NCBI GenBank assembly: GCA_035640355.1
Contig: DASQWI010000008.1
Location: 1-64,000 of the forward strand
Reading direction: 5' to 3'
Length of the DNA stretch: 64,000 bases
Source of the DNA: Actinomycetota bacterium
Lineage (GTDB): Bacteria; Actinomycetota; UBA4738; HRBIN12
Under the pieces are notes generated by a model. It did no database searches. It was given only the letters and a program-made list of their open reading frames with translations, and was not told the origin of the DNA. Positions within the stretch are counted from its first letter, which is position 1, and every line of letters starts with the position of its first letter. A program made the position numbers and the translations under genes. Of the stretch, positions 12,391-36,787 are shown piece by piece.

Positions 12391-12408
12391 GGCGCGATAC
12401 CTTCTTGG

Positions 12409-14382: not shown

Positions 14383-15690
14383 ATGCAACGGCCTCGGCGG
14401 GGACCAATTGCGGACGCGACACGAGCCGAGAGATCGGGCGATAGGCGTCCCACCGTGGCGCTGGTCGCCGGCCCGGACCGCTTCGAGGACTTCTACGACA
14501 AGATCGGCGTCTCGATCGAGGACTTCCGGACGCGGCTGAAGAGCGGGTGGATCTGCAACTACGTCGACGCCTTGATGTCGGTCGGCGTTCGGATGGTTCT
14601 CGTTTTCCTGTCGTCCCGTGTGGCCGAACCGCGGCGATTCATCCACCGGGGGACCGGTGCGCCGGTGTGGGTCCTCAGGGATCCATATCGCCATCGATTG
14701 TTGTTGAAGGTGCGCGGGCGCTGGCCGAAATCACCCGTACCGCCCTCCGTAGTCTCTTACGCATCCACACCTGTCCGGGCCCTCATGCAGACGCTCGATC
14801 GCGAGCGGTGCGACGCGATCCTGTGCCAGGAATATGAGTCGAGCAGGTTTGACATCAGCGTTCTGACTCGACCCCTGCACGGCCGTCCGGTGTATGCGAC
14901 GTATCAGGGGACGAACGCAACTGCCAGCCACATCGAGCAACCGATCCGTCGATACACCGTTCGACGCGCCGACGGCCTGATCGTCGCGGCTCGTTCCGAG
15001 CGCGAACGGGTCAAGGCGACATACGACGTTCCTGACGAGCAGATCGCCGCCATCCCCAATCCAATAGACGTTGCGGCTTGGAAACCGATCGAACGGAGTA
15101 CCGCACGCGAGCGCCTGGGGATCGCCGAGAACGCCGCGGTCGTCGAGTGGCACGGACACGCGCAGGTGTGGAGGAAGGGTCTCGACGTGCTCCTGGATGC
15201 GTGGCAGATCGTCTGCGCCGAACGTCCGCATCGCGAACTCCTCTTGCTCCTGGTGGGACGGGGACGGAACACCGCTGAACTCAGGCGGCGCGTGGAGGGC
15301 AACTTACGCGTCCGGTGGATCGACCGGTTCGTCCACGATCGCGAGGAGCTCAAGACGTACTTATGCGCCGCGGATGTCTACACGCTCCCGTCGCGGCACG
15401 AGGGCTTTGCGATTGCTCCACTCGAGGCCATGGCGTGTGGGTTGCCGGTCGTCGCCGCGGACACGTCAGGGGTAGCAGACCTGTTACCCGATGGCGACGC
15501 GTCCGGAGGTGTCGTCGTCCCGCGCGAGGATGCGACCGCTCTGGCGTCGGCGCTCGGACGCCTCCTCGACGATCCAGCACGCGCGCGCAAGCTCGGGACG
15601 CGAGCAAGACGGCGGGTCAGGGAGGAGTTCTCGCTCGAAGTCGTCGGGCGACGGCTCAGCGACTTCGTGGTCGCCGGCGGCCGCACGTGA
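14383..15690 (+). CDS. GT4-family glycosyltransferase
   Basis: A GT-B protein of 435 residues (411 if the GTG at 14455 is used, which begins VALVAGPDRFEDFYDKIG and may be the real start). Seen: AIPNPIDVAAWKP, a linker leading to RLGI, VEWHGHAQVWRKGLDVLLDAW, LLVGRGRN, and the C-terminal LPSRHEGFAIAPLEAMACGLPVVAADTSG, where EGxxxxxxE is the donor-phosphate-binding region. The acceptor-side domain has a long unusual start with DFYDKIGVSIEDF. It begins 7 bp after the preceding GT2 stop, so it belongs to the same transcript as the sulfotransferase. Sugar unknown. Confidence 0.88.
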   Translation: MQRPRRGPIADATRAERSGDRRPTVALVAGPDRFEDFYDKIGVSIEDFRTRLKSGWICNYVDALMSVGVRMVLVFLSSRVAEPRRFIHRGTGAPVWVLRDPYRHRLLLKVRGRWPKSPVPPSVVSYASTPVRALMQTLDRERCDAILCQEYESSRFDISVLTRPLHGRPVYATYQGTNATASHIEQPIRRYTVRRADGLIVAARSERERVKATYDVPDEQIAAIPNPIDVAAWKPIERSTARERLGIAENAAVVEWHGHAQVWRKGLDVLLDAWQIVCAERPHRELLLLLVGRGRNTAELRRRVEGNLRVRWIDRFVHDREELKTYLCAADVYTLPSRHEGFAIAPLEAMACGLPVVAADTSGVADLLPDGDASGGVVVPREDATALASALGRLLDDPARARKLGTRARRRVREEFSLEVVGRRLSDFVVAGGRT

Positions 15691-15793
15691 TCCTGAGGAC
15701 ATTGAATACGTACACACAGGCACTGTTGGTCGGAATCGGTACCTCTGCAATGCCTTACGCTACAAACGTGCGGCACATCCGGTCAGGACGCTC

Positions 15794-17434
15794 ATGATCG
15801 TCGACGGACGCACCGTGACGCAGGACGACGTGCTGCGGTTCGATGTCTGCGTCATTGGGGCAGGCCCCGCCGGCATGCTGGTCGCCAGCCAGCTGGCCGG
15901 TAAGGGGATGCGCGTGTCTCTCCTCGAACGCGGCGACGACGACAGCGGTCGTGGCCGGACGCACACTGCGCGTAATGCCGGAATCGAATATGACGTCGGG
16001 CAATCACGCGGATTCGGGCTGGGAGGAACGGCGAACAAGTGGGATCTCCACACCCCTTGGGGTGATCGATTGGCCCGATTCCGTGAGCTCGACGAGGCCG
16101 ACTTCGCCCCGCGCGATTGGGTACCGCACAGCGGCTGGCCATTCCGCAAGTCCGAGCTGCGGCCGTTCTACGACCTCGCGTGGTCATTGTTGGGATGCCC
16201 GCCAGGATTCCTCGACGCTCTCTGCAGCCACGGAACGGGCCCGAACCCCTTCCAAGATCACGACGGGATCGTCCAGCAGTGTCTCTTTGTGCTCGCGTCG
16301 CCTCTTTTCGCCGAGCGGCTGAGAGCCGACCTCGCGGGGTCGGCAAGTGCGACGGTGCTCACGAACTCGACGGCGGTGGACATTCGTTGTGACGCGTCGG
16401 CGTCTCACGTTTCATCCGTGGGTGTGGCGACCCAGGGGTCCAAAGGGTTCTCCGTTGACGCCCGCGTCTTCATCCTCGCCGCTGGTGGCATCGAGAATGC
16501 GCGAATGCTCCTCGCGTCTCGGTCCCGACATAGTGAAGGTGTGGGCAACGGGCATGGTCTGGTGGGTCGATTCTTCATGGAGCATCCACTCTTCGTGTCT
16601 GGCGTACTGCATCCCAAGGATTTCAGCGCGTTCGACGATCCCACGAGCTTTGACTCGCACCTACACGACGACATTGTTGTACGCATGAGCTACGCCCTCC
16701 ATGAGGACGTGATCCGTCGGGAGCGACTGTTGCGATCGTACTTCGTCTTCGAGCGCTTCTTTCTCAACGCCCGCGTTCGCAGAATCTACGCGAGCGAATT
16801 TGCCGCGCGATCGCTTCGGGCGGCGGCGAACGTCCGTGCGACGTTGATGGGGCGAGCGAGAACGTCCAACTTCGCCGAAGAGATCCGACGCGCAACCTTG
16901 GGCTCCCACCATATCGCCAGATTCGGGCTCGACTTGACCCGCGAGAAGGTTCTCCGACGTCTGAACCCCCGCCATCGAGGTCCACAGGTCTTCCGCATCC
17001 TCGCGATGGCCGAGCAGGTGCCGAATCCCGACAGCCGAGTACGTCTGACATCCGCCAAAGACGAGTTTGGTGTGCCGATGGCTCGACTGGATTGGCGACT
17101 GACCGACCAGGACGTCGATAGCTATGAGCGGTCCCAGAACCAACTCGCGGAGCGGCTTGTCGCGGCCGGACACGAATCCATCGACTCAATCGTGAATCGG
17201 ACGTCTCTTCCGAACGTGCTGAGAGGTGCACATCACCACATGGGTACGACCCGGATGTCGGACGATCCTCGCCGCGGAGTGGTGGACCGCAACTCCCTCG
17301 TCCATGGGGTCGACAACCTGTACGTCACAGGGGCATCGGTCTTTCCGACCGGGGGCTACGCCAATCCGACCCTCACCGCGATGGCACTTGCTCTACGGGT
17401 GGCTCATCATTGCGAATCCTCCGCAGTGAGCTGA
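15794..17434 (+). CDS. GMC-family FAD-dependent oxidoreductase
   Basis: A protein of 546 residues with an N-terminal Rossmann FAD site, VCVIGAGPAGMLVASQL (GAGPAG at 22-27), ERGDDD at the end of strand 2, and FILAAGGIENARMLL in the middle. The C-terminal GMC signature includes HHHMGTTRMSDDP and NLYVTGASVFPTGGYANPTLTAMALALR. The histidines of that region are the likely catalytic base. Members oxidise alcohols or sugars. Context (aldo/keto reductase next, heptose operon opposite) suggests oxidation of a sugar or polyol. Start ATG at 15794; the 103 bp before it separate it from the GT4 gene and may hold a promoter, though none is convincing. Confidence 0.87.
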   Translation: MIVDGRTVTQDDVLRFDVCVIGAGPAGMLVASQLAGKGMRVSLLERGDDDSGRGRTHTARNAGIEYDVGQSRGFGLGGTANKWDLHTPWGDRLARFRELDEADFAPRDWVPHSGWPFRKSELRPFYDLAWSLLGCPPGFLDALCSHGTGPNPFQDHDGIVQQCLFVLASPLFAERLRADLAGSASATVLTNSTAVDIRCDASASHVSSVGVATQGSKGFSVDARVFILAAGGIENARMLLASRSRHSEGVGNGHGLVGRFFMEHPLFVSGVLHPKDFSAFDDPTSFDSHLHDDIVVRMSYALHEDVIRRERLLRSYFVFERFFLNARVRRIYASEFAARSLRAAANVRATLMGRARTSNFAEEIRRATLGSHHIARFGLDLTREKVLRRLNPRHRGPQVFRILAMAEQVPNPDSRVRLTSAKDEFGVPMARLDWRLTDQDVDSYERSQNQLAERLVAAGHESIDSIVNRTSLPNVLRGAHHHMGTTRMSDDPRRGVVDRNSLVHGVDNLYVTGASVFPTGGYANPTLTAMALALRVAHHCESSAVS

Positions 17435-17453: not shown

Positions 17454-18440
17454 ATGGGACGAACGGACGGCGTTGTTGAGATTCCCCTGCGCCGCCTGGG
17501 GTCGCAGGCGCCGACGATCTCGGTCATTGGGTACGGGGCATGGGAGGCCGGGTCCACCGAATGGGGAGCGGCTCCTCCAGACGCCCAAGTCGTTCAAGCG
17601 ATGATCACCGCTTTCGAAACGGGCGTCACCTGGATCGACACGGCTGAGATCTATGGCTCCGGTCGCTCCGAGGAGTTGGTCGCGAAGGCAATAAAGACAT
17701 GGCCCGACATCAAGATCTTCACGAAGGTTGCATCCGCGCCTCGTGGCTCGGGCTACCGACCTGGCGACGTTCGTCGCGCTGCAGAAGCGAGCCTGCGGCG
17801 GCTGGGCCGCGATGTGATCGATCTCTACCAGCTCCATTGGTTGGACGAGACGGACACACGGCTCGAGGAGACCTGGTCCGCGATGGCCGCTCTCGTCGAT
17901 GCCGGACTCGTGCGGTGGATAGGGGTTTCAAATTTCACTCAGGCGGCCATGGAGCGCTGCGAGCGGATCCGCCACGTTGATTCGTTGCAACCTCATCTGT
18001 CGATGCTCTGGCAGGAACGTCTGCCGCTGCTGTCGTTCTCGAGTCGGAATGGGACTGGCGTGATCGCATATGGCCCACTCGCATTCGGCCTCCTGACGGG
18101 AACGATCACCCGCCGGACGCGCTTCCCTCAAGGCGATTGGCGATCGGGATCACGCGGCTTGCGCGCGTACGATCAACTCTTCGCGCCCCATAGGCTCGAC
18201 CGCAACCTCGAGGTCGTCGAGCGACTGAAGCCCATCGCCGATCGGCTTGGCACATCGCTCGCGAAGCTCGCGCTCGCCTGGGTCCTTCATCAGCCCGGCG
18301 TCACGGGTGTGATCGCCGGTTCGCGTGCGCCCGACCACGTGAGAGAGAACGCGTCGGTTGGGTCCGTCAGGCTCGACCCGTCCGTTCTCGCGGAGATCGG
18401 ATCTGTTCTGGAGCTGAGAGGCGAGCTGACTCACCAATGA
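17454..18440 (+). CDS. Aldo/keto reductase
   Basis: A protein of 328 residues with the TIM-barrel aldo/keto reductase pattern: WIDTAEIYGSGRSEELVAKAI (catalytic Asp and Tyr), KIFTKVAS (Lys), DLYQLHWLDE (His), RWIGVSNFT, and the C-terminal cofactor-binding GVIAGSRAPDHVREN. The tetrad is complete, so it should be an active NAD(P)H-dependent oxidoreductase. ATG at 17454 lies 19 bp after the GMC oxidoreductase stop; the two probably act in sequence on a sugar carbonyl/hydroxyl, which is inference. It converges on the heptose operon, with 29 bp between the stops. Confidence 0.88.
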   Translation: MGRTDGVVEIPLRRLGSQAPTISVIGYGAWEAGSTEWGAAPPDAQVVQAMITAFETGVTWIDTAEIYGSGRSEELVAKAIKTWPDIKIFTKVASAPRGSGYRPGDVRRAAEASLRRLGRDVIDLYQLHWLDETDTRLEETWSAMAALVDAGLVRWIGVSNFTQAAMERCERIRHVDSLQPHLSMLWQERLPLLSFSSRNGTGVIAYGPLAFGLLTGTITRRTRFPQGDWRSGSRGLRAYDQLFAPHRLDRNLEVVERLKPIADRLGTSLAKLALAWVLHQPGVTGVIAGSRAPDHVRENASVGSVRLDPSVLAEIGSVLELRGELTHQ

Positions 18441-18469: not shown

Positions 18470-19774
18470 TCAGCGAACGGGTTTCAGTAGCCCTCCATCG
18501 AGGAGGGCTCCCGCAGCGTTCTTGACGAGCCCGAACGGCAGGTTGGCTCGTTCGGCCACGTTCAGCAGGGTATTGCGCCCGTCAGAGAGGTTGAGAACCC
18601 ACAGCCGCCCCATGAGTTCGGCTGAAACGCCTTGCGCCCCAACACTCGGGTACAATCCGCGCTTCCCGAGCTGGGGCTCGCCTTTCGGGCTCAGGTTGAC
18701 GCAGATCCCGTCGTTCTCGAGCACGTCGATGATTTCGAGGTAGATGCGGAGGGATTCCGCCAGAGCGGCAGGCCGGACGAAATCCAGGTCGTCGCTCGAC
18801 GTGTGGTACTCGGGATACTCGCCATGCAGCCCCCGAGTCAGCGATCCGACGGGAAGGTCGAAGCCCGGAGAGCAGTACTGCCTTTCGTCGTACCCGTATG
18901 GGGAGAAGTCGACGATCCGGTAGGCGTAACCCGAGTGCTGGAGGACGTGAGCGGCGGCCCGATCGATCGGCGCGTCGCCGCGACGGCTCCTCTTGTACGT
19001 GAATGCTCCGGGCGCGCCGACTCCCGTCACGACGAGGCCGTGTTTGATCCGGTGAACCCGATCTTCGTTGGACGCGAGCCAGGTGATCGGTCCAATCGTG
19101 CCCGGCACGAACAGGAACCGGTACGAGTACCGAAGTGACATGTCTTGGAGGTGCTCGATCAACTGCGTCGCGAGGGCGATGCCGGACAAGTTGTCGTTGG
19201 CCAACGACGGGTGGCAGCAGTGGGACGAGATCAGGACCTCCTCCTCCGTGCCACCCGGCAACACCACCTCGCCGTACGTCAAGCTCCCAGGCTCGAGCGA
19301 CGAGTCGATCCGGACGTCGTAATCGCCGTCGGCAAGCTGCTGCAGTCGCTCATCCTGCATGCAAAACCCCCATGCCTCCGAGTAGTAGGAGGTCCGGTAG
19401 GGGATCACATCGGGCTGATCGGGAAGCGTGTGCACGTGCTCCTTGAGCTCCGACAGCGACATGCGTGCATCGACGGGAACGCTGTAGCCAACGACATGAA
19501 GGTTGTGCTGGCGGAAGTCGACCACACGACGTCCATCCTGATCGGCGATGTACGCATCGCGGATGTTCCACTCGTTCGGCACCGTCCAATCGAATACGTG
19601 CGTGCCCGTCTGGACCTCGTGAACGTCCATCGGGACTCGCTTCGCGATGCGGCGCAACGTTTCGCGGAGACCGTCGCCGGTGATGCTTCGACAGATCGGG
19701 AACAGCTCCTCGACGAACCCGAACATGCGCGAGCCGCTCGTGCCCGGGTCGAAGCCGTGAAGGAAGTCGCGCAT
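18470..19774 (-). CDS. DUF4910 aminopeptidase-like protein
   Basis: A protein of 434 residues. It matches the DUF4910 layout: an N-terminal helical part (MFGFVEELFPICRSITGDGLRETL), a zinc-peptidase-like core with HCCHPSLANDNLSG (metal-ligand region), YRFLFVPGTIGPI, FDLPVGSLTRG and YPEYHTSSDD, then a C-terminal winged-helix segment (SDGRNTLLNVAERANLPFG). Such proteins recur in polysaccharide and modified-sugar loci, but their substrate is not established. Last gene of the leftward heptose operon, starting 4 bp after the C-methyltransferase stop. No signal peptide. A hydrolytic or transferase role on an amide-linked sugar substituent is possible (inference). Confidence 0.82.
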   Translation of the reverse strand: MRDFLHGFDPGTSGSRMFGFVEELFPICRSITGDGLRETLRRIAKRVPMDVHEVQTGTHVFDWTVPNEWNIRDAYIADQDGRRVVDFRQHNLHVVGYSVPVDARMSLSELKEHVHTLPDQPDVIPYRTSYYSEAWGFCMQDERLQQLADGDYDVRIDSSLEPGSLTYGEVVLPGGTEEEVLISSHCCHPSLANDNLSGIALATQLIEHLQDMSLRYSYRFLFVPGTIGPITWLASNEDRVHRIKHGLVVTGVGAPGAFTYKRSRRGDAPIDRAAAHVLQHSGYAYRIVDFSPYGYDERQYCSPGFDLPVGSLTRGLHGEYPEYHTSSDDLDFVRPAALAESLRIYLEIIDVLENDGICVNLSPKGEPQLGKRGLYPSVGAQGVSAELMGRLWVLNLSDGRNTLLNVAERANLPFGLVKNAAGALLDGGLLKPVR

Positions 19775-19778
19775 CGAC

Positions 19779-21059
19779 TCAGCGCGCCGAGACTGCCTCG
19801 ATGTCCTCGTGCGTCAGTTCGAACGGCGTGGGGATCGGCACGATGAAGCGCCCCCCACGCCTACGGTACTCGACCTGCTGCTGCACGATCTCGTCGACGA
19901 AGTTCCACGCGAAGAGCACGACCGCATCGGGTTGATCCTTAAGGAGTCGCTCCACGGGCACGATCGGTATGTGCGATCCCGGAGTGAATCGTCCCTGTTT
20001 GAGCGGGCTGCGGTCGACGATGTATCCGATCTTGTCAGGGCCGATCTCGAGGTAGCTCAGAAGGGTATTGCCCTTGGCCGGGGCGCCATACCCGACCACG
20101 CGAACCCCCGCGCTTCGTCGATCCTCCAGCATCCGAGACAGGACTCGCTTCACGTTCGCCGTTCGTTCCGCGAACGCCTCGAACGTTTGTTTGCGCCCGA
20201 GGCCGCGCTCTCGTTCGACGGCCAGGATCTGTTCAACTCGAGCGTCGGGGTCTCGCTCGCCGTTCCGCTGCATCGTGACCCGAAGCTGCCCGTGATGAAG
20301 GGGAACCCGTTCCGCGTCGACGACCTGGAACCCATGCTGCTCGAGCAGGCGCATCAATGGACCCAGGGACCAGTACGACACATGCTCGTGGTAGATGGTG
20401 TCGAAAGCTCCCTGTTCGATCATGTCGAGCAGGTAGTGGGCTTCGATGACGAAGGCACCACCGGGCTGGAGCGCCTTCTCGATCCCCTCCATGAAGTCGT
20501 GGAGATCGGGGATGTGCGGGAACGTGTTCGTCGCCATGATGAGCGCAGCCCGCCCCCACCGGTCGACGATCTCGTCGGCCGAGCGCGAGTCGAACAGATC
20601 GACGTATCGCTCGATGCCGGTATCTCGTGCCAGATCGGCGAGGTTCTTGGCCGGATCGACGCCGAGCGTCCGGACGCCGAAGCGTTGAAACCCCTCCAGT
20701 AAAGCACCGTCGTTGCAACCGATGTCGACGACTAGATCGTCTGTGGTCAGCCCGCGGCGGTCGCTCATGATCGCGCTGAGATCGAACAGGTGTCCTCGGA
20801 GCGTGTCCGACGCCGAAGAGACGTACAGGTAGTCCTCGAACATGTCCCTGGGCGGCACGACCTCGGACAGCTGGACGTGAGAGCAATCGGTGCAGTACGC
20901 AACGCGGAGCGGGTATGCGGGCTCCGGCATCTCGAGTTCCTCGCGCGTGAGGAACCGGTTCGCTAGTGGGGTCGAGCCGAGATCCAGGAACGGCTTCAGG
21001 TCGTTCGACCCGCAGACGATGCACGCCTCGATGGTGCGAGTCGAGCCGAGCGTGAGCAT
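19779..21059 (-). CDS. NovU/TylCIII-type nucleotide-sugar C-methyltransferase
   Basis: A protein of 426 residues with the three-part layout of sugar C-methyltransferases. An N-terminal zinc-binding domain has Cys13, Cys16, Cys56 and Cys59 (CIVC, CTDC). A central SAM domain has VVDIGCNDGALLEGF and MATNTFPHIPDL. The C-terminal domain has VVGYGAPAKGNTLLSYL, IGYIVDRSPLKQGRFTPG and FAWNFVDEI. Relatives methylate C-3 of dTDP-4-keto-6-deoxy sugars. Here the neighbours make GDP-heptose, so a GDP-keto-heptose is a plausible substrate (inference). ATG at 21059 follows the kinase stop by 1 bp. No 4,6-dehydratase of the classical type is in the operon except possibly the SDR protein. Confidence 0.86.
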   Translation of the reverse strand: MLTLGSTRTIEACIVCGSNDLKPFLDLGSTPLANRFLTREELEMPEPAYPLRVAYCTDCSHVQLSEVVPPRDMFEDYLYVSSASDTLRGHLFDLSAIMSDRRGLTTDDLVVDIGCNDGALLEGFQRFGVRTLGVDPAKNLADLARDTGIERYVDLFDSRSADEIVDRWGRAALIMATNTFPHIPDLHDFMEGIEKALQPGGAFVIEAHYLLDMIEQGAFDTIYHEHVSYWSLGPLMRLLEQHGFQVVDAERVPLHHGQLRVTMQRNGERDPDARVEQILAVERERGLGRKQTFEAFAERTANVKRVLSRMLEDRRSAGVRVVGYGAPAKGNTLLSYLEIGPDKIGYIVDRSPLKQGRFTPGSHIPIVPVERLLKDQPDAVVLFAWNFVDEIVQQQVEYRRRGGRFIVPIPTPFELTHEDIEAVSAR

Positions 21060-21060
21060 C

Positions 21061-22071
21061 TCAGCCCGCCGCCGGGACGATGATCTGCGAGCCGTGGACC
21101 TCGTGTTCGATCGGCACCTCCATCAACTCCGACAATGCCTCGCGCACCCGCGCCTTCTTCTCGGGCTCGACGACGAATAGAAGGAACCCACCGCCGCCTG
21201 CGCCGCAAAGCTTTCCGCCGATCGCCCCAGCATCGGTCGCGCGCTCGTACCACCCGTCGATCTGGGAAGTGGTGATCGTGCTCGCGAGCTCGCGTTTCAG
21301 GTGCCACCCCTCATCGAGCACCCGGCCGAAGTCGAGGACATCCAGACGCCCGTTAGAGGCGATCGTCTGGAGCTCCTGGGCGTGGTCACGCATCTTCCGC
21401 AGCAGCTCCATCTTGTGCTCGGTGTTGCGCTGCTGTTCGGCGAGTACGGACTCCGCCGAACGCTGGTGGCCGGTCCAGAACATCACGAGACTCCCGAACA
21501 GCCCCTGAATGGTGTCGTCGCTGACATGCTTCTGTTCCACCATGACCGAGCCGTCGGACTTGAACGCGAAGTAGTTGAGGCCTCCGAACGCCGAGGCGTA
21601 TTGGTCCTGCTTGCCGATCGGCTGCTTCAAGACGTCGATCTCGATATGTGAGGCCTCCTCCGCGAGGCGGCCGGGACCCACTCGTTCCCCTCGATATGCG
21701 TGCAACGCGTTGAGCAGACCTACGGCGAAGGAGCTCGAGCCGCCCAGCCCTGAAGACGCCGGGAGATCGCCGACGGTGCTGATGTAGATGGGCGGATCGA
21801 TATCCAGGAACTTCAGGCACTCTCTCGCGATGTCGTTCTCGATCTCCTCGATCGACTGGACCTCTTCGCTCTTGGAGTAGTTCAGTCGTATGGGCTCGAA
21901 GAAGAGCTCGCTGTGAGGTTTGATCGTGACCCAGACGTAGCTGGAGATCGCCGTGCTGAAGACGGCGCCGAACTCGCGTTCATAGAACGCCGGCAGGTCA
22001 CTCCCGCCGCCCGCGAAGCTCACACGGAGGGGGGTCCGGGTCACGATGATCCTCGGGGCGAAGCTAGCCAT
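21061..22071 (-). CDS. hddA: D-glycero-alpha-D-manno-heptose-7-phosphate kinase (GHMP family)
   Basis: A protein of 336 residues. HddA phosphorylates C-1 of heptose-7-phosphate to the 1,7-bisphosphate. Seen: RTPLRVSFAGGGSDLPAFY (12-30), the GHMP ATP-binding loop PASSGLGGSSSF at 104-115, KQPIGKQDQYASAFGG and the C-terminal KLCGAGGGGFLLF. This matches HddA and fucokinase-like GHMP kinases; the operon, with GmhA and GmhB/HddC activities, decides for HddA. The ATG at 22071 (MASFAPR) was chosen, overlapping the previous gene by 8 bp; another ATG six codons upstream is possible. Confidence 0.88.
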   Translation of the reverse strand: MASFAPRIIVTRTPLRVSFAGGGSDLPAFYEREFGAVFSTAISSYVWVTIKPHSELFFEPIRLNYSKSEEVQSIEEIENDIARECLKFLDIDPPIYISTVGDLPASSGLGGSSSFAVGLLNALHAYRGERVGPGRLAEEASHIEIDVLKQPIGKQDQYASAFGGLNYFAFKSDGSVMVEQKHVSDDTIQGLFGSLVMFWTGHQRSAESVLAEQQRNTEHKMELLRKMRDHAQELQTIASNGRLDVLDFGRVLDEGWHLKRELASTITTSQIDGWYERATDAGAIGGKLCGAGGGGFLLFVVEPEKKARVREALSELMEVPIEHEVHGSQIIVPAAG

Positions 22072-22513
22072 GGCGCAACGACCAGTCATAGGGGATGTCG
22101 GAAGTGAACGGGTCGATCCGCTCGATCTCCTCGGGGTCGTGAGGCTCGGTGGCGCAGTTGGCGAGGATCACGGGCTTGTCGCCGTAGGCCTTGTATCCAT
22201 TGGCAATACCCGGGGGGATCTGGACGAGAGAGTAGTTGTCCTCGCCGATGAACACCTCCTGGAGCTCCCCTCTCGTCGGCGAGCTCTCACGCAGGTCGTA
22301 CATCACGAGCTTCGCCCGGCCGGAGACGACGGCGTTGTTAACCGTCATCGAGCGATGCACGTGCCAGCCCTTGATCGCGCCGGGCCACGCGGTTGAGAAG
22401 TAGATCTCCCCGAACGCGATGAAGTGCTCGTCCGTCGCCTTCAGCATGTGCATGATCTTCCCGCGCTCGTCGACGATCTGCCGGAGCGGGATGATCCTCA
22501 CGCCATCGATCAC
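22064..22513 (-). CDS. RmlC-like cupin, sugar-nucleotide 3,5-epimerase family
   Basis: A small cupin of about 149 residues resembling dTDP-4-keto-rhamnose 3,5-epimerase relatives. Seen: RGKIMHML, FGEIYFSTAWPGAIKGWHVHRS (the His of the RGLH-type motif reads KGWHVH), LVQIPPGIANGYKA and a C-terminal YDW. Such proteins epimerise or isomerise keto sugars. The GTG at 22513 was chosen because it has a GAGG-type site upstream and a 4-bp GTGA overlap with the SDR gene, the pattern of this operon. An ATG 24 bp upstream (MGARRGD) is the alternative. Role in converting a GDP-keto-heptose is inference. Confidence 0.78.
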   Translation of the reverse strand: MIDGVRIIPLRQIVDERGKIMHMLKATDEHFIAFGEIYFSTAWPGAIKGWHVHRSMTVNNAVVSGRAKLVMYDLRESSPTRGELQEVFIGEDNYSLVQIPPGIANGYKAYGDKPVILANCATEPHDPEEIERIDPFTSDIPYDWSLRHG

Positions 22514-23568
22514 GATGTCGCCTCTGCGCGCGCCCATCTGAGGTGCCCGTCGAGCCGCCCGTCGGAGAGAAGGCTCCGCAACCACGAAAGGCGCGTAAAC
22601 CGGGGATCCCGGTACATCGCTTCCGTAAGCCCCACTCGGCGAAACGATTCGTACAGATCGTGCGCTCCGGACTTCGCGTCCCACCGGAACTCGAAGTCCG
22701 GGAACGTCCTCGCGAACTTATCGAAGTTCGCTCGGTACGTTCGCTGATCGGCGTCGCCGCGTGCTTGGACGGCGAGCTCGGAGCCAGGAACCGTCGCGGT
22801 CGCGATCTCTGCCAGCTCGATCACCTGGTGGTTGAGGTGGTTCGCTCCCGTGTTGAACGCCTGCCCGTGGATCACTTCCGTCGGAGCCTCGAGAACCGCT
22901 ACGAAGGCGCGAGCGACGTCCTCCACGTGGACGACGGGCCGCCACGGCTTCCCGTCGCTGAACACCGTCACTTTGCCCGTCGCGGACGCCGAGCCCAAGA
23001 GGTCGTTGAAGACAGTGTCGAACCGCATCCGCGGCGAGACGCCGTACACGGTGCCGTTTCGAAGGAAAACCGGTGAGAACCGATCGCCCGCAAGCTCGGC
23101 GATGGCCTGCTCCGCGTCGACCTTCGACCTCGCGTACTCGGTCTGGGGCGCGAGCGGGGACATCTCGTCGACCTCGTCGGCCGAAGACATCCCGTACATG
23201 ATGCAGGACGAGGAGAACAGGAAGCGGCGGACGTCTGCCTCTCGCGCCAGCTCGGCGAGCCGCACAGACGCGCTGAGGTTGATCTGCTCCGTCCAACGCT
23301 GGTCCAGGTTGCCGATCGGGTCGTTGCTCAGCGCGGCGAGGTGGATGACGGCGTAGAGCGACCTCAGATCTTCCGGCACGACATCCCGGATGTCCTTCTC
23401 GATGGTTGGGACATCGACGGGGTCCGGGACGAACGTGCAGTCGTCGAAGTACCCGATGTCCATGCCAACTACGTCGTAGCCGGCCTCGAGCAGGTGGCGG
23501 ACCATCACGGACCCGATGTAACCGCGGTGCCCGGTCACGAGCACGGGTAGGCGGGTCGATTTCGTCAC
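22510..23568 (-). CDS. Extended-SDR nucleotide-sugar epimerase/dehydratase
   Basis: A protein of 352 residues. Seen: an N-terminal Rossmann motif VTGHRGYIGS, FSSSCIMYG (catalytic Ser region), the YxxxK pair in YARSKVDAE, FLRNGTVYGVSPRMRFD and PWRPVVHVEDVARAF. This is the extended short-chain dehydrogenase family that epimerises, dehydrates or reduces nucleotide sugars. The GTG at 23568 (VTKSTRLPVLVTG) overlaps the preceding fusion gene by 4 bp. In this operon it is the best candidate for the first modification of GDP-heptose, for example 4,6-dehydration or 4-keto formation; the sequence alone does not distinguish these. Confidence 0.85.
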   Translation of the reverse strand: MTKSTRLPVLVTGHRGYIGSVMVRHLLEAGYDVVGMDIGYFDDCTFVPDPVDVPTIEKDIRDVVPEDLRSLYAVIHLAALSNDPIGNLDQRWTEQINLSASVRLAELAREADVRRFLFSSSCIMYGMSSADEVDEMSPLAPQTEYARSKVDAEQAIAELAGDRFSPVFLRNGTVYGVSPRMRFDTVFNDLLGSASATGKVTVFSDGKPWRPVVHVEDVARAFVAVLEAPTEVIHGQAFNTGANHLNHQVIELAEIATATVPGSELAVQARGDADQRTYRANFDKFARTFPDFEFRWDAKSGAHDLYESFRRVGLTEAMYRDPRFTRLSWLRSLLSDGRLDGHLRWARAEATS

Positions 23569-24794
23569 GATGGCTCCAGGGTTCCGTCGATCAACGCGCG
23601 GGTCAGGTGGAGTAGCGACGACCGTTCCGTGACCATAGCGAAACGACAGCCCGCCGCTCGGGCGGCTTCTGCGTCGCGGTCGTCGTCCCCGAGGAACCAC
23701 GTCCTCGTCAGATCGAGGTGGTGGTCACGTTGCGCCTGGAACAGCATTCCCGGCCGCGGCTTGCGACACTCGCAGCCCGCGTTCCAGTCGTGTGGGCAGT
23801 GATATGTCCCGTCGATCCTCCCGCCGGCGGCCTCGGCGTCGGCGCGCATCTTCGCGTGGATCGCTTCGAGATCGACCTCCGACATGAGGCCGCGTCCGAT
23901 CCCCGCCTGGTTCGAGACGACGATGACGCGGTAGCGGGCCGAGCGCAGTGATCGGAGCGCTTCCAGAGCGCCGGGAAGCCACCTGAACTCGTCCGTGCTC
24001 GTGACGTACCGTGCGCGTGCAGGCTTGTCGTTCAGGACTCCGTCGCGGTCCACGATCACCGTCGGCGTCATAGCAAGGAACGCATCGGTCAGCGGGAGGC
24101 GCTCGTGCGAGCCCACGCTGTAATACCGGTGATCCGACACGAACGCCGAGAGCTGCCGCTGCGCGACGAGCGACGGATAGACGGCCTCCTCGAACAGCAT
24201 GTCTCCTTCCGGGAACAGTTCGAGTACGGACTTCGGCACGATCGCATAACTGATCTCGACGCCTTTGAGGCCTGGTGTCGTTCGGGATCTGTCGAAGGTC
24301 GTCACCGTGCCGTTGTCATCGACGATGACGCTGTCTCTCGAGTAGCCGTCCTTGTTGCTGTAGACGGTGATCTGAGCTGCTGCCCCCGATTTCACAAACG
24401 ACGTCCAGACGCGATCCATCTGGAGCGGCCAGTAGTTGTCGCAGTAAAGGAGCAGGAACAGATCGTCGAGAAGCGATTCCGCTACGCGCACACGATGGAC
24501 CGTGAGCGCCTCTGGGTCCGTGGTGGAGTACGAGATCGAGACGCCCCATCTGTGACCGTCTCCGAAGTGACCTTCGATCACGTGCGGCAGGTACCCGAGG
24601 AGCATCAGGATGCGCTCGAACCCCTGATCACGCAGGAGCTCGACGACGTATTCCAGGAATGGTTTGCCGTGGAATTCGATCATCGGTTTCGGGCGCGTCT
24701 GCGTGAAGGGGAGCATGCGCGTCCCACGCCCCCCCGCGAGAACGACGGCCTGCGTCGGCCGATCCGTGTAGCTCGGTGGTGCCTCCACCGTCAC
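23565..24794 (-). CDS. HddC-GmhB fusion: heptose-1-phosphate guanylyltransferase plus heptose-1,7-bisphosphate 7-phosphatase
   Basis: A bifunctional protein of 409 residues. Residues 13-240 form a nucleotidyltransferase (LAGGRGTRM at 19-27, RPKPM at 34-38, CDNYW as the metal site), expected to join GMP to heptose-1-phosphate. Residues 245-405 form a HAD phosphatase of the GmhB type: VDRDGVLND with nucleophile Asp249 and Asp251, VVSNQAGIGRG, zinc ligands Cys333, His335, Cys341, Cys343, then RKPRPGM and FLGDDDRD. The transferase step thus follows the phosphatase step in one chain. The GTG at 24794 overlaps the gmhA stop by 4 bp. The specific sugar is assigned from the operon (GmhA and GHMP kinase present). 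Confidence 0.9.
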   Translation of the reverse strand: MTVEAPPSYTDRPTQAVVLAGGRGTRMLPFTQTRPKPMIEFHGKPFLEYVVELLRDQGFERILMLLGYLPHVIEGHFGDGHRWGVSISYSTTDPEALTVHRVRVAESLLDDLFLLLYCDNYWPLQMDRVWTSFVKSGAAAQITVYSNKDGYSRDSVIVDDNGTVTTFDRSRTTPGLKGVEISYAIVPKSVLELFPEGDMLFEEAVYPSLVAQRQLSAFVSDHRYYSVGSHERLPLTDAFLAMTPTVIVDRDGVLNDKPARARYVTSTDEFRWLPGALEALRSLRSARYRVIVVSNQAGIGRGLMSEVDLEAIHAKMRADAEAAGGRIDGTYHCPHDWNAGCECRKPRPGMLFQAQRDHHLDLTRTWFLGDDDRDAEAARAAGCRFAMVTERSSLLHLTRALIDGTLEPS

Positions 24795-25396
24795 CGCCGC
24801 AGCGCGTTTCGCCCGCTCGTGTTGTCCGCGATGAGATAGGAGGTGACGATATCCGTCACGGCGGAGTGGCCAGTCTCGGCGAGGCCGTACGCACCGACGT
24901 CCGTTGGCAGCCAAACGAAGTCGTCGACAGCCTCCTTGAGGATCCCTCCGTCGAACCCGAGCAGCGCGATCGTCGTGACGCCGTGCTCCCTGGCAGTATC
25001 GACGGCGCGGACGAGATTCGGAGAGTTTCCGCTTGCAGAGATCACGACGAGCACGTCGCCCGCCTGCGCGAAGTTCTCCAGCTGGCCGGCGAAGACACGG
25101 TCGTAGCCCTCGTCGTTGGCGAGCGCTGTGACGAACGAGGCGTTGTCGGTGAGGCTGACGGCACGGATCGAGGGGCGCCCAGCGGCTCTCGTCGCCTTGC
25201 AAAGGTCGTTCACCCAGTGTGCTGCCGTCGCTGCGCTGCCTCCGTTCCCCGCGACGAACACGGTCGCGCCCTCTTCCCGCGCCAGGCGCAGCCGCGCAAC
25301 GAGGCGTTCCACGGCATCGACGTCGATCGCGTCGAGGACCTTGTGTAGCGCGTCCAGGTAGGTGATCAGCAGCGGGGTCGATGGGGTTTCGGGCAT
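24791..25396 (-). CDS. gmhA: Sedoheptulose-7-phosphate isomerase
   Basis: A SIS-domain protein of 201 residues. GmhA converts sedoheptulose-7-phosphate into D-glycero-D-manno-heptose-7-phosphate. Seen: FVAGNGGSAATAAHWVNDL, the phosphosugar-binding loop with GNGGSA; VVISASGNSPNLVRAV; ALLGFDGG; and the C-terminal ETGHSAVTDIV. Length and motifs fit GmhA/DiaA; the heptose kinase and phosphatase next door support GmhA. ATG at 25396 has GGAG a few bases upstream. It is the first of the heptose genes, 12 bp after the TagA-like gene. Confidence 0.92.
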   Translation of the reverse strand: MPETPSTPLLITYLDALHKVLDAIDVDAVERLVARLRLAREEGATVFVAGNGGSAATAAHWVNDLCKATRAAGRPSIRAVSLTDNASFVTALANDEGYDRVFAGQLENFAQAGDVLVVISASGNSPNLVRAVDTAREHGVTTIALLGFDGGILKEAVDDFVWLPTDVGAYGLAETGHSAVTDIVTSYLIADNTSGRNALRR

Positions 25397-25408
25397 GTCG
25401 CTCCTCGG

Positions 25409-26254
25409 TTAGGTCGAACTGCGGTCGTGGGCTCCAACACGTTCGGTGCCTTCGTGTCGGCCGCGGCTTCGAAGCCGCCGCCTGAGCGCGTCACGGGCCA
25501 AGAGCCATAGGAAAATGGCGTTGCCGACGATGTACCTGCGTGCGAGGCGACGCGGCTCGACTGCCAAGCGGAACAGCCATTCCAGCCCGATGTGACGCAG
25601 GGCGGTCGGGGCAGCGGCCTTCGTGCCCGCGAGGTAGTCGAACGCCGCGCCCACTCCCACCATGACAGGGACGTCGACGCGTTCGGCCAACTCGGCCATC
25701 AGCAGCTCCTGCTTGGGGGCGCCCAGGCCGATCCACAGCACGTGGGGCCGCGTCCGCCGGAGCTCGTGCTCCAATTCATCGACGGGCCAACCGCCGTGTG
25801 CCTCGGCGAACGGTGGAGACGCGGCACCGACGATGGTGACGCCGGGCACGAGGTTCTCGAGGCGGAGTCCGGCACTAACTGCAACGCCGGGCGCGCCGCC
25901 GTAGAAGAAATGCCGCAGCCCTCGGTCGACACCGATCGAGGCGACCGCGGGGATGAACTCGATCCCCGTCACCTTCTCCGTCTGGATGTGGCCGCGGCGG
26001 CGGAGGATCCAGGCGAGCGGCATCCCGTCGGGAACCGACAGATACGCCCCGTCGACCGCGGCCCTCAACGCCGCCGAACGCTGGGACTCCACAGTCGTGT
26101 GCACGTTCGTTAGGCACACGTATGCGCCGGGCTCGCCGTCGAGCGCTCGCTCTACGACGGCCTCGGCTGCTCGCGCCTTGCTAACGGGATCGACGCGCTG
26201 TCCGAGGACGCGTTCGACCCAAGGCAAACCCACGGCAGTCGTTGTGGCAGACAT
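25409..26254 (-). CDS. WecG/TagA/CpsF (GT26) glycosyltransferase
   Basis: A protein of 281 residues. Family members add the second sugar, often an N-acetylmannosamine-type residue, to an undecaprenyl-diphosphate-linked sugar. Seen: LTNVHTTVESQ, YLSVPDGMPLAW with the conserved Asp at 76, LGAPKQELLM, GVGAAFDYLAGTKAAAP and GLEWLFRLAVEPRRLARRY. The basic C-terminus is the part that binds the membrane in TagA. ATG at 26254 lies 3 bp after the priming-transferase stop, so priming and second-sugar addition are encoded side by side. Confidence 0.92.
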   Translation of the reverse strand: MSATTTAVGLPWVERVLGQRVDPVSKARAAEAVVERALDGEPGAYVCLTNVHTTVESQRSAALRAAVDGAYLSVPDGMPLAWILRRRGHIQTEKVTGIEFIPAVASIGVDRGLRHFFYGGAPGVAVSAGLRLENLVPGVTIVGAASPPFAEAHGGWPVDELEHELRRTRPHVLWIGLGAPKQELLMAELAERVDVPVMVGVGAAFDYLAGTKAAAPTALRHIGLEWLFRLAVEPRRLARRYIVGNAIFLWLLARDALRRRLRSRGRHEGTERVGAHDRSST

Positions 26255-26257
26255 CCG

Positions 26258-27790
26258 TCAGTAGGCCCCTTTGCGCATGAGGAGCGCGCCGATCGTCCGC
26301 AGCAGGATGTAGGCGTCGAGGACGGGCGACCAGTTTTCGATGTAGAAGTGGTCCATCCGGATCGCGTCCTCGTGATCCTCGACGTCCGATCGCCCCTGGA
26401 TCTGCCACCATCCCGTGATCCCCGACCGAACCTCGTGTCGAGGACCGAGCAACTCGATGTTCGCGGAGACCTGCTGGGCCGGGAGTGGCCGCGGACCGAC
26501 GAGGCTCATGTCGCCAATCAGCACGTTGAACAGCTGAGGGAACTCGTCGATGCTCCACCGACGCAGGATCTTGCCAACCTTGGTTAGTCTCGGGTCGTCG
26601 CCTCCGAGCTTGAAAAACGGCGCTGACGTGTTGAACCCGTTCACTTCGGCGAGCTGTTCGGCGCCGTTCGCCATCGTCCGGAACTTGTACATCACGAACG
26701 TGCGCGCTCCCTCTGTCACACGCTTCTGCTTGAACAGCACCGGCGAGCCAGAAGTGACTCGGATCGCGATCGCCGCAACGAGAACGACGGGCGAAGTCAC
26801 GATGAGGCCGATGGCAGCGAGTCCGATGTCGATGCCGCGCTTTATGAACCGCTGGGAAGCCGAAAGGCCTGCCGGCTTCATGCTCAACACGACGCCTTCG
26901 TTACCGAGCGGCTGCGCGGTCAGCCGCGAGGCGAGGACACCCGACAGGTGCGTGTAGATCCGCACGATGATCCCCTCTTGCCGCGCGGCTTGCATCAGAG
27001 CGAGCATCTGACGCCGGCCAATCGTCGTCGACGCCATGAAGACGCAGTCGGGTTGGTACTCCCGGAACACGGATCGAAAACGCCTAACGCGTTCGTTCGT
27101 CGAGACGGACGCGGACGCGATGATCGGGCTGTTCGCGTCGATCCATCCAAGCGGCAGAAAGCCCGATCCCGGCGTCCCGAGGGCTTCGAGCGGTTCCTGC
27201 ACCTGATCGCCGCTTCCGATGATGAGCGTGCGCATCGTGAGCAAGTCTGTCGCGCGTAGGCGCGCCACGTATCGGCGCACGACCATTCTCGTCGTGAGCT
27301 CGAGCACCAGAGCGATGCCAAACGTGATCGCCATCCACGACCGCGATAGGTACACCTCGGTCCAGAACGTCAGCAGGATCAGAAGCACGATGCCGATCCC
27401 GACGGCGATCGCCGTGCGTCGGAATTCCTCCAATGCGGACAAAAGGTGCGGCGCATAGAGGCCGAGGGCGTGGAACACGGCCGGCCACAACATCCCACCG
27501 AGGGCGATCTGTACGAGGTACTCCCATTCAGGGACGACCCCGAAGCGCAGGGCGTGTGCGACCAACAGGGCCACCGTTAGGCACAACACGTCGAGGGGCA
27601 GCAGGAGGAATCCGAGGGACCGGTACCGGGCAAGCGTGTTGGTGCCCACGGTGTGCTCGACGGACCCATCGACCGGCATGCCGTCGGGAGGAAGGACTAC
27701 GCCAGTTAGGTCGACGGTGGAGTCGACGTCCGGCTGGGGGAGGACGATGACCTCGTCCGTGATCCGAGGCACGGTCTGGCGGGCTGTCAT
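26258..27790 (-). CDS. Polyprenyl glycosylphosphotransferase (WbaP/CpsE type), priming enzyme
   Basis: A membrane enzyme of 510 residues. It starts a glycan by moving sugar-1-phosphate from a UDP-sugar to undecaprenyl phosphate. Seen: four N-terminal membrane helices (residues 60-170), a CoA-binding-like Rossmann domain (TLIIGSGDQ), a fifth hydrophobic helix (IKRGIDIGLAAIGLIVTSP), then the catalytic bacterial sugar transferase domain with KQKRVTEGARTFVMYKFRTM, RRWSIDEFPQLFNVLIGDMSLVGPRP and GITGWWQIQGRSD. Start choice is not simple: the ATG at 27790 has no well-placed Shine-Dalgarno sequence, while GGAGG upstream is set for an out-of-frame ATG at 27804; a TTG at 27829 is a further option. First gene of the heptose operon. 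Confidence 0.92.
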   Translation of the reverse strand: MTARQTVPRITDEVIVLPQPDVDSTVDLTGVVLPPDGMPVDGSVEHTVGTNTLARYRSLGFLLLPLDVLCLTVALLVAHALRFGVVPEWEYLVQIALGGMLWPAVFHALGLYAPHLLSALEEFRRTAIAVGIGIVLLILLTFWTEVYLSRSWMAITFGIALVLELTTRMVVRRYVARLRATDLLTMRTLIIGSGDQVQEPLEALGTPGSGFLPLGWIDANSPIIASASVSTNERVRRFRSVFREYQPDCVFMASTTIGRRQMLALMQAARQEGIIVRIYTHLSGVLASRLTAQPLGNEGVVLSMKPAGLSASQRFIKRGIDIGLAAIGLIVTSPVVLVAAIAIRVTSGSPVLFKQKRVTEGARTFVMYKFRTMANGAEQLAEVNGFNTSAPFFKLGGDDPRLTKVGKILRRWSIDEFPQLFNVLIGDMSLVGPRPLPAQQVSANIELLGPRHEVRSGITGWWQIQGRSDVEDHEDAIRMDHFYIENWSPVLDAYILLRTIGALLMRKGAY

Positions 27791-28217: not shown

Positions 28218-29540
28218 ATGCGAGTCGTCGTCGTCGGTACCGGTCATGTTGGATTGCCCACTGCGGCAACCCTGGCGTCGTTCGAGCACGACGTCGTCGG
28301 TGTCGACGAGGACGAGGAGAAGATTCGCGGGCTCCAACGAGGCACCACGCCATTCTTCGAGCCTGGGCTCGCCGAACTTATCGAACGCGGAGCGCGTACT
28401 GGCCGCCTTCGGTTCTCCGTCGACGCCGCCGAGGCGATCCCGTCGGCAGAGGTCGTCTTCCTCTGCGTCGGCACCCCCGCCCGAGCGTCCGGAGACGCGA
28501 ACCTCGTCGCCGTGGAGCGATCGGCCCGTGGGATCGCGCCGCATCTCTCGCCGGGGGTCGTCGTCGTCAAGAAGTCGACCGTGCCGGCGGGGACGGCGCA
28601 GCGGCTGCGTCAGGTGCTGAGGATGACGCGGTCCGACCTGGCCGAGGACATCGAGGTCGTGTCGAATCCCGAGTTCCTCCGCGAGGGTCAAGCCGTGGAG
28701 GACTCGTTCCATCCTGACCGGATCCTCGTCGGTGCGCGATCCGCGCGCGGCTTCGAGACGATGCGCCGGCTCTACGAGCCGTTGATCCGTGACGGGGCGA
28801 AGCTGATCGAGACGGACATCGAGACCGCCGAGCTCGCGAAGCACGCGAGTAACGCGTTCTTGGCGCTGAAGGTCTCGTACGCCAACGCGCTTGCGCGCGT
28901 CTGCGAGCTCGCGGGGGCCGACGTGACCGCGGTCGCCGACGTGATGGGATCTGACCCCCGCATCGGACGAGCGTTCCTGGACGCGGGACTCGGTTGGGGC
29001 GGGTACTGCTTCCCGAAGGACCTCCAGGCGTTCGACCGGCTGTCGTCTCGCCTCGGCTATGACTTCGGCCTGCTTCGTGAGGTGGAGCGGATCAATAACG
29101 AGGCGATCGACGTGGCCGTCGAGAAGGTTCGGGACGCCTTGTGGAACCTCGAGGACAAGCGCGTCGCGCTGCTCGGCCTCTCGTTCAAGCCTCGAACGGA
29201 CGATGTCCGCCTGTCGCCAGCGCTGTCGCTGGCGCGCCGTCTGATTGCCGAAGGCGCGGCGACGGTCGGATACGACCCCGAAGCCGGGGCGAACGCGAAA
29301 TCGGAGGTGCCCGATCTCGAGGTGGCGCCGAGCGTCTACGACGCCCTCGACGGCGCTCACTGCATGGTCGTGTGCACGGACTGGGACGAGTTCCGCTCGA
29401 TCGACCTGCCACGGGCGAAGGAGCTGATGGTGCACCCCATCGTCGTCGACGGCCGGAACATGTTCGACCCTCAGATCATGCGGGCATATGGCTTCGTGTA
29501 CCACGGGACCGGTCGGGCGTCCCTTTCCGAGGGCGGCTGA
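28218..29540 (+). CDS. ugd: UDP-glucose 6-dehydrogenase
   Basis: A protein of 440 residues. It oxidises UDP-glucose to UDP-glucuronate with two NAD+. Seen: [13 protein letters not shown] (GTGHVG 7-12), [30 protein letters not shown], the catalytic loop GGYCFPKD with Cys264, and the C-terminal [17 protein letters not shown] and DGRNMFDP. All key residues are present. ATG at 28218 has AAGGGG nearby. Stop and next start overlap by 1 bp (TGATG), so it is coupled to the decarboxylase that uses its product. Confidence 0.95.
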
Positions 29541-30481
29541 TGCCTCGAGCGCTTGTGACGGGGGCGGCGGGATTTCTCGGATCGCACCTATCCGATCGAC
29601 TGCTTGGCGAAGGCTGGGATGTGATCGGCTTCGACTCGCTCCTCACCGGCCGGGCGGAGAACCTCGGCGATGCGCTATCGAACGGGCGGTTCCGATTCGA
29701 GCAATACGACGTGACGAACTACCTCCACGTCGACGGCGATCTCGATTGGGTCCTCCACTTGGCGTCGCCGGCGTCTCCGACGGACTATCTGGCGTATCCG
29801 ATCCAGACGCTGAAGGTCGGGGCGTTGGGGACGCTCCGCGCGCTGGGGCTGGCGAAGGCGAAGCATGCGGGTCTGCTCCTGGCGTCGACGTCGGAGGTCT
29901 ACGGGAACCCACAGGTTCACCCGCAGCCCGAGACGTACTGGGGGCACGTGAACCCCATCGGGCCGCGCGGCGTCTACGACGAGGCCAAGCGGTACGCGGA
30001 GGCGATGGTGATGGCCTACCACCGGTCGCACCGTGTGCCCGTCAAGATCGTCCGCATCTTCAACACGTACGGCCCCCGCATGCGCCGCCGCGACGGCCGT
30101 GCCGTGCCGACGTTCATCGATCAGGCCCTCCAAGGATCGCCGTTGACGGTGCACGGCGACGGCTCGCAGACGCGATCGCTCTGCTATGTCGAGGACCTGG
30201 TGGAGGGCATCTGGCGGCTCCTGACGTCGGACGTCGTCGCCGAACCGGTGAACCTGGGAAATCCCGAGGAGGTGAAGGTCCTCGACCTGGCACGGACGAT
30301 CACCTCGCTCGCCGGCAGTCGTTCCGACGTCGTCTTCGTCGACCGGCCCGTCGACGATCCGGACGTTCGATGCCCGGATATCCGCAAGGCCACGACGGCG
30401 CTCGGGTGGATGCCTCGCGTCCGGCTCGCCGACGGTCTCGAGCGCACGATCGAGTGGGTCCGCGCCTTGACGACTGCTTGA
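29540..30481 (+). CDS. UDP-glucuronate decarboxylase (UDP-xylose synthase)
   Basis: An extended SDR of 313 residues. UXS turns UDP-glucuronate into UDP-xylose. Seen: [11 protein letters not shown] (8-14 nucleotide loop), [12 protein letters not shown], the catalytic [13 protein letters not shown] (Tyr146, Lys150), and [26 protein letters not shown], which is the UXS-type stretch. The ATG at 29540 shares one base with the ugd stop. The pair Ugd-UXS supplies UDP-glucuronate and UDP-xylose for the glycosyltransferases around it, possibly including the GT14 enzyme at 46732. Confidence 0.92.
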
Positions 30482-30486
30482 CGTCG

Positions 30487-30516
30487 TTGCAAGCGTGAGT
30501 ATGAACGGCGTAGGGT
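30487..30516 (+). promoter_or_regulatory. Putative sigma-70 promoter for small sorting-signal protein
   Basis: TTGCAA at 30487-30492, an 18-bp spacer, and TAGGGT at 30511-30516; the -10 has the TAnnnT form common in high-GC actinobacteria. It lies 6 bp after the UXS stop and about 48 bp before the next start. Confidence 0.5.
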
Positions 30517-30563
30517 GTGGGTAACGTTCCCACGCCGAAGTCGCGAAGGAGAGGGTGGTAGGT

Positions 30564-30836
30564 GTGAAGAGGTTCGGGTACGCGCTCATCGGTGCTTTGT
30601 CCGTGACGCTGCTCACGGCGATGCCTGCGCTGGCCCAGTCGGTCGTTCCGCCTGGCACGGACGTGGGTCCGCAAGTCATCGCTCGCGCCCCCGAGAACGT
30701 GGTTCAGGCCCCCGGCGGCGTGGCGTTCACCGGTTCTGAGGTCACGCTGTGGATGGTGCTCGCGGCCGCGCTCCTCGCGGTCGGCCTGACGGTGTACGTG
30801 CTGGGCCGGCGCCGCGCACGCGCAGGCGCGAAGTAG
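30564..30836 (+). CDS. Small secreted protein with LAxTG-like sorting signal
   Basis: A protein of 90 residues. Seen: a signal peptide (MKRFGYALIGALSVTLLTAMPALAQS), a mature part of about 30 residues rich in Pro and Val, then VAFTGSE followed by one hydrophobic helix and the basic tail GRRRARAGAK. This is the tripartite layout of a sortase substrate, with an (L/V)AxTG-type motif of the class E kind found in actinobacteria. No sortase gene is in the window, so it may simply be a one-pass membrane protein. The GTG at 30564 was chosen with GGAGAGG upstream; a GTG three codons earlier is possible. Function unknown. Confidence 0.75.
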   Translation: MKRFGYALIGALSVTLLTAMPALAQSVVPPGTDVGPQVIARAPENVVQAPGGVAFTGSEVTLWMVLAAALLAVGLTVYVLGRRRARAGAK

Positions 30837-30854
30837 CTCGCACCGCTATGACGC

Positions 30855-30868
30855 GCAGCGACCGCTGC
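30855..30868. other. Small hairpin between convergent genes
   Basis: GCAGC-GACC-GCTGC, a perfect 5-bp stem with a 4-base loop, between the stop of the small secreted protein and the stop of the DUF4012 gene. No T-run follows in either direction, so terminator function is doubtful. Confidence 0.3.
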
Positions 30869-30904
30869 TCGATTCAGGGCGTCTTCGCGTAGGTCGTCTT
30901 CCGA

Positions 30905-32944: not shown

Positions 32945-33181
32945 AGGTCTCCGGTTGTACAGGGGTGGGGACGGCCAATGCTACTTAGGCGTCCCGAGCA
33001 ACTCGCGGCATGCCCTTCTCGGCGCTTGCGTGTTTGAACGTTGAGCAACCGGGAAATGTGTCCCCCGAAACACGTACAGTGCACTACGTCGGCCGAACGG
33101 GTTAACGTCAGGGGCGCCGTAGGCCGAACGGCCGGGTCGGTGACGCTTGGGGTTGCGTCGGTTGCGGCGCGAGGGGGATGC
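32945..33181. promoter_or_regulatory. Divergent intergenic region (DUF4012 / second priming transferase)
   Basis: About 240 bp without a credible gene. It must hold both promoters. Seen: an imperfect relative of the ATACCCGT motif (minus strand TTAACCCGTT at 33096-33105) and GAGGGGGA just before the rightward start. No clear -35/-10 pair. Confidence 0.4.
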
Positions 33182-36719: not shown

Positions 36720-36769
36720 CCTGCCTCCCAACGGATGCCCGCTTGATTGCGGACTGCCCGCTGATCGCG

Positions 36770-36787
36770 AATACCCGTCATTACCCG
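36770..36787 (+). promoter_or_regulatory. ATACCCGT motif pair
   Basis: Two head-to-tail copies, ATACCCGT and TTACCCGT, begin at 36770 and 36780, exactly one helical turn apart (10 bp). They lie 50-70 bp before the Wzz-kinase start. The same core lies at a similar distance from the other large leftward operon (27831). Candidate operator. Confidence 0.42.

Follow-up and report, generated by a model that had tools for sequence, protein, structure and literature searches.

Cj1427-type C4-dehydrogenases oxidise GDP-heptose, and 2-oxoglutarate recycles their bound NADH. In C. jejuni, capsular heptose modification combines Cj1427 with a Cj1430-type epimerase and a Cj1428-type C4-reductase. Cj1427 of Campylobacter is a GDP-D-glycero-D-manno-heptose C4-dehydrogenase, and GDP-6-deoxy-heptoses also occur in Campylobacter (PMC10680097). 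As in the HS:2 pathway, the operon analysed here encodes a Cj1427-like SDR and then an RmlC-type cupin, but a C-methyltransferase has been added, a Cj1428-like reductase is absent from the operon and the cupin is of another RmlC subfamily, with 3ejk as its nearest match. The methyltransferase is the same three-domain enzyme, with the same catalytic residues, as TylC3 (mycarose) and TcaB9 (tetronitrose), at 310-320 bits; the substrates of those enzymes are, however, dTDP-4-keto-deoxyhexoses whereas the partner genes here are predicted to build a heptose. The four activities of the known GDP-D-glycero-D-manno-heptose pathway are likewise represented, with HddA and WcbL structures as the best matches of the kinase, but here HddC is fused to GmhB, the GmhA and HddC sequences have diverged and the use of GDP is a prediction. 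In the CA_C2195 modules, the three-domain protein that is also encoded by the last gene of this operon lies beside nucleotidyltransferase, epimerase and sugar methylase genes (PDB 3k9t; PMC4000134). The other DUF4910 modules in this analysis, apart from one Acidimicrobiales locus described below, mostly have a cytidylyltransferase-like enzyme, often with a PIG-L deacetylase and RmlC, and heptose genes are absent from them. We consider a branched NDP-heptose, destined for a lipid-linked surface glycan, to be the probable product of the operon, formed through heptose assembly, C4 oxidation and C-methylation. Gene content, linkage, homology, motifs and co-inheritance are directly observed; from these we infer each reaction, as well as the use of GDP, the methylation site, the reaction of the cupin, any C4 reduction and the role of DUF4910.

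The operon has nine genes, all transcribed leftward, from 27790 to 18470 of the window, the 64,000-nucleotide stretch of actinomycetotal DNA that was analysed. In transcription order, these encode a priming transferase, a WecG/TagA protein, GmhA, an HddC-GmhB fusion, an SDR, an RmlC-like cupin, a GHMP kinase, a C-methyltransferase and a DUF4910 protein. Every gene named in an earlier note on this DNA is present at the place and on the strand reported there. That note had placed GmhA, a GHMP heptose kinase, the HddC-GmhB fusion, the priming transferase and a TagA-like enzyme in one overlapping leftward operon, with which both family matches and coordinates agree, and family matches also bear out its listing of an SDR, an RmlC-like cupin and a C-methyltransferase (Epimerase, 152 bits; dTDP_sugar_isom, PF00908, 53 bits; Methyltransf_14, 185 bits). 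The DUF4910 gene was absent from its list. At the junctions, given as stop/next start, the priming transferase and TagA meet at 26258/26254, TagA and GmhA at 25409/25396, GmhA and HddC at 24791/24794, GmhB and the SDR at 23565/23568, the SDR and the cupin at 22510/22537 or 22513, the cupin and the kinase at 22064/22089 or 22071, the kinase and the C-methyltransferase at 21061/21059, and the C-methyltransferase and DUF4910 at 19779/19774. With all junctions overlapping or no more than ~12 nt apart, a single transcript is likely. A promoter scan upstream of the operon found none, and repeat searches inside it returned only weak, chance-like matches. The first gene (26258-27790, reverse strand, as are all the operon genes below) encodes a polyprenyl-phosphate sugar-phosphate transferase (Bac_transf, PF02397, 206 bits; TIGR03025, 365 bits, above the cut-off) and the second (25409-26254) a WecG/TagA/CpsF glycosyltransferase (PF03808, 165 bits; TIGR00696, 119 bits, above the cut-off). 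Together, they suggest that the product is used in a polyprenyl-linked glycan.

An isomerase, a kinase, a phosphatase and a nucleotidyltransferase for the GDP-D-glycero-D-manno-heptose route are all encoded, as homologues, in the operon. The GmhA-like sedoheptulose-7-phosphate isomerase (24791-25396; SIS_2, 71 bits), the source genome's sole SIS_2 protein, carries Asn-Asp at the position of the Glu-Glu pair of E. coli GmhA. Its TIGR00441 score (103 bits) is below the cut-off of 209; HddC also scores below its curated equivalog cut-off, and both proteins are divergent. The GHMP kinase (21061-22089, or with a start at 22071), which has both the N- and C-terminal GHMP domains, would phosphorylate the heptose at C1. 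Against the PDB, it scores 160 bits with 3k85, 128 bits with 4n3o (HddA) and 119 bits with 4usk/4usm (WcbL, listed in the PDB simply as sugar kinases); its score with NF049969 is below the equivalog cut-off. A fucokinase was rejected on the same PDB scores, at 65 bits as compared with 160, 128 and 119 bits for the heptose kinases, and galactokinase scores 54 bits. The 7-phosphate would then be removed by the C-terminal half of the fusion, a GmhB-like heptose-1,7-bisphosphate 7-phosphatase HAD domain (23565-24089; PRK08942, 159 bits; 4pnh GmhB, 117 bits) that retains the DRDG and CPH...C.CRKP motifs. A nucleotide, probably GMP, would be added by the N-terminal half, an HddC-like sugar-1-phosphate nucleotidyltransferase domain (24084-24794; NTP_transferase, PF00483, 65 bits). 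A profile built from 15 members of this half matched the heptose guanylyltransferase WcbM (6jq8/5xhw) over its full length, with WcbM and mannose-1-phosphate guanylyltransferases at 77-91 bits and RmlA below 59 bits, but a chain named as a uridylyltransferase scored highest, at 102 bits. GDP is a plausible nucleotide of the heptose, and the earlier claim that the gene set is complete stands for an NDP-D-glycero-D-manno-heptose, with four homologous activities predicted from one operon.

The SDR (22510-23568; Epimerase, 152 bits), an extended SDR, has Cj1427 as its best match among solved structures, both by sequence (6vo6, 96 bits) and by fold, with 6vo8 and 6vo6 occupying ranks 1-5 in a search with an AlphaFold model (pLDDT 92), where they lead other SDRs only modestly. 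It is probably, on sequence and model, a Cj1427-like NDP-heptose C4-dehydrogenase that would oxidise C4 to give a 4-keto sugar. The SSSCIMYG motif and the YxxxK are invariant in 14 relatives, all of which lack the Glu at the dehydratase position, and there is no gene for a 4,6-dehydratase within the operon. The absence of this Glu argues against a 6-deoxy product. The suggestion in the earlier note that the heptose is possibly deoxy is thus not upheld, and a 4,6-dehydratase reading of the SDR was discarded on this motif and on the fold search, in which a dehydrogenase was best. A 6-deoxy or deoxy branched heptose, made with the SDR acting as a 4,6-dehydratase, would have precedent in the GDP-6-deoxy-heptoses of Campylobacter (PMC10680097), and a GMD is encoded elsewhere in the source genome, but given the motif, the fold match and the operon content we regard such a product as highly unlikely.

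The cupin (22064-22537, or with a start at 22513) has 3ejk as its nearest PDB entry, with weaker matches to the Campylobacter heptose 3-epimerases 8dcl and 8dak. A structure model of low confidence (pLDDT 55), which gives the fold class only, also falls on the RmlC fold. Relative to the catalytic His, Lys and Tyr of RmlC and DdahB, His59 is retained, the Lys is absent and an invariant His133 occupies the position of the Tyr. On these replacements it was rejected as a standard RmlC, and the reaction of this putative 4-keto-heptose epimerase is left doubtful; it would probably epimerise C3 and/or C5. A Priestia cupin, 36% identical, also lacks the Lys, with the Tyr retained, and as it is the sole RmlC candidate in an RmlA-RmlB-RmlD operon, the window cupin may have an RmlC-like activity. 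The cupin was also rejected as a marker unique to the cassette, as 96 of 397 genomes of the phylum have relatives, mostly at or below ~160 bits, and those inspected are all in clusters without heptose genes. One actinobacterial cluster (L194, 5518-9883) encodes a cytidylyltransferase-like enzyme alongside a close relative of the cupin (210 bits) and a C-methyltransferase (342 bits), documenting that the cupin and methyltransferase also pair outside heptose clusters.

The C-methyltransferase (19779-21059), labelled NovU-type in the earlier note and with Methyltransf_13, methyltransferase and Methyltransf_14 domains, has as its closest solved relatives TylC3 (4rv9, 320 bits) and TcaB9 (3ndi, 310 bits), both 3-C-methyltransferases. 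Its conserved Y77, H182, Y223, E225 and H226 correspond to Y76, H181, Y222, E224 and H225, the catalytic residues of TcaB9 (whose numbers are offset by two in the printed chain). The methyl group would be placed beside the ketone, with C3 the probable site from sequence. With these residues retained, a Cj1427-like C4-dehydrogenase and a conserved linkage, the proposal in the earlier note that enzymes for a branched, C-methyl heptose are encoded here is supported. No gene for a dedicated C4-reductase was found in the operon. C4 might then be reduced by NADH retained on the SDR, or by an enzyme encoded elsewhere; alternatively, the product would stay a keto sugar. An aldo-keto reductase gene (17454-18440), on the opposite strand, ends 30 nt from the end of the operon and a GMC oxidoreductase gene (15491-17434) is also on that strand. 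These are possible partners for C4 reduction or for a separate sugar oxidation.

To identify related loci, 84,980 named species genomes were scanned with the SDR alignment as query and the best 80 loci were retained. These fall into two sets, 14 with an SDR 59-71% identical to that of the window and 66 with an SDR 46-52% identical. In the close set, all 14 loci encode the kinase and an HddC-GmhB fusion that reads through in a single frame, 12 have the cupin and 10 the methyltransferase. The hosts are Acidobacteriota, Verrucomicrobia, Omnitrophota, Actinomycetota (Acidimicrobiales) and Alphaproteobacteria, and the recurrence in 14 named loci means that the gene set is not a chance assembly. A GmhA-family gene is present in each of the 14 genomes, although in Acidobacteriota it is located outside the cassette. 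An Acidimicrobiales contig (L098) has a gene order, from GmhA to DUF4910, identical to that in the window. In four Acidobacteriota loci (L088, L090, L092 and L095), an ATPase-like gene (VPTQLRQVLSELLAESL...) is located downstream of the methyltransferase. None of the 66 distant loci has the kinase or GmhB, but 58 have a cytidylyltransferase-like enzyme and 55 the methyltransferase. As this cytidylyltransferase-like enzyme is RfbF-like, the distant set is presumed to be hexose-type. If the operon itself were to make a C-branched hexose, with the kinase, GmhA-like and GmhB-like proteins using hexose phosphates, this would accord with such sister modules (SDR, methyltransferase and DUF4910) and with the GmhA and HddC scores below their equivalog cut-offs. 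We consider this improbable, as the kinase is far nearer to heptokinases than to fucokinase, the fusion of GmhB with a nucleotidyltransferase, in the window and all 14 relatives, fits a bisphosphate intermediate and the best match of the SDR is a heptose enzyme.

The methyltransferase is close to the heptose genes in its 10 loci, across three phyla, and is missing from the remaining four. Both it and the cupin are absent from the Mesorhizobium loci (L099 and L100), which have a standard RmlC instead, and an Omnitrophota cassette (L097) is also without the methyltransferase. Such cassettes are consistent with a Campylobacter-like route, in which the heptose undergoes C4 oxidation, epimerisation and reduction and the methyltransferase acts on some other NDP-sugar, and further NDP-sugar SDRs are indeed encoded in the source genome, among them a strong GMD on a separate contig. 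This division of labour seems rather unlikely to us, given how regularly the methyltransferase lies close by, that the source genome has only one full-length member of this C-methyltransferase family and that the heptose-adjacent methyltransferases form their own group in trees (support 100). The SDRs of the heptose set are likewise separated from the others by a single branch (support 99), both trees being from a quick search in which long branches were flagged. Distance matrices for the cassette proteins, from nine complete cassettes, correlate at 0.93-0.99, values inflated by closely related Acidobacteriota rows and host ancestry, and this correlation indicates that the proteins are inherited together.

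Other genomes of the phylum encode SDRs 92-94% identical to those of named Streptomyces, which places the window in Actinomycetota, within a small class. Within the family of the window's organism, the kinases of relatives are just 31-36% identical and are apart from a cassette within the short stretches read. Among the 27 genomes of the class, a full-length C-methyltransferase or DUF4910 is present in one other genome, where it is part of the second type of module. Together, these observations suggest that the operon was acquired. A relative from the window's own order (G001) has this second, no-heptose form (L059, 5454-11152), with genes for an SDR, a C-methyltransferase, a cytidylyltransferase-like enzyme, a PIG-L deacetylase, RmlC and DUF4910. 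Streptomyces and rhizobia also have gene sets of this kind, which resemble an uncharacterised branched-hexose pathway.

The DUF4910 gene (18470-19774; DUF4910, PF16254, 373 bits; PDB 3k9t, 490 bits) encodes a full three-domain (DUF4910/DUF2172/HTH_47) protein of the CA_C2195 type. The zinc ligands H188, D194 and H324 are retained and the peptidase Asp and Glu are replaced by S190 and P224, in conserved columns. A published analysis reported no peptidase active site in DUF4910 proteins and suggested that they contribute to modified carbohydrates of the cell surface (PMC4000134), and with the peptidase residues replaced, a peptidase function was rejected. DUF4910 is present in only 2 of 15 heptose cassettes, those of the window and L098, but as it is found in heptose and hexose-type modules alike, its target is probably something that the two share, for instance the portion of the ring that is C-methylated and oxidised at C4. 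It would make a further modification shared with the hexose versions of the module.

No published C-methyl heptose, or GDP-heptose with a C-methyltransferase, was found in the open-access literature, a body of work outside of which most carbohydrate journals lie, so that novelty is unproven. The arguments seem to us evenly balanced on a more specific proposal, that the product represents an undescribed class of monosaccharide, a GDP-activated C-methyl-D-glycero-heptose, probably 3-C-methyl, from a multi-phylum cassette, repeatedly present in Acidobacteriota, that represents the heptose branch of a larger module which oxidises C4 and then C-methylates. If the operon does make a C-methyl heptose, a new branched heptose is predicted in the surface glycans of several environmental bacterial groups and a set of enzymes would be at hand for making it. 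DUF4910, with a structure but no function, would gain a defined class of NDP-sugar substrate, and it would suggest that the SDR, cupin and methyltransferase are movable between hexose and heptose pathways.

Other glycan genes are present in the window. A sulfotransferase gene (12307-13416) is located among glycosyltransferase genes, and suggests a sulfated surface glycan. Another priming sugar transferase is encoded at 33041-33925 and a chain-length protein of the Wzz/AAA_31 type at 34968-36851, with a UDP-glucose dehydrogenase and an SDR nearby (28218-30481). The genes from 28218 to 36851 possibly constitute a second glycan locus.
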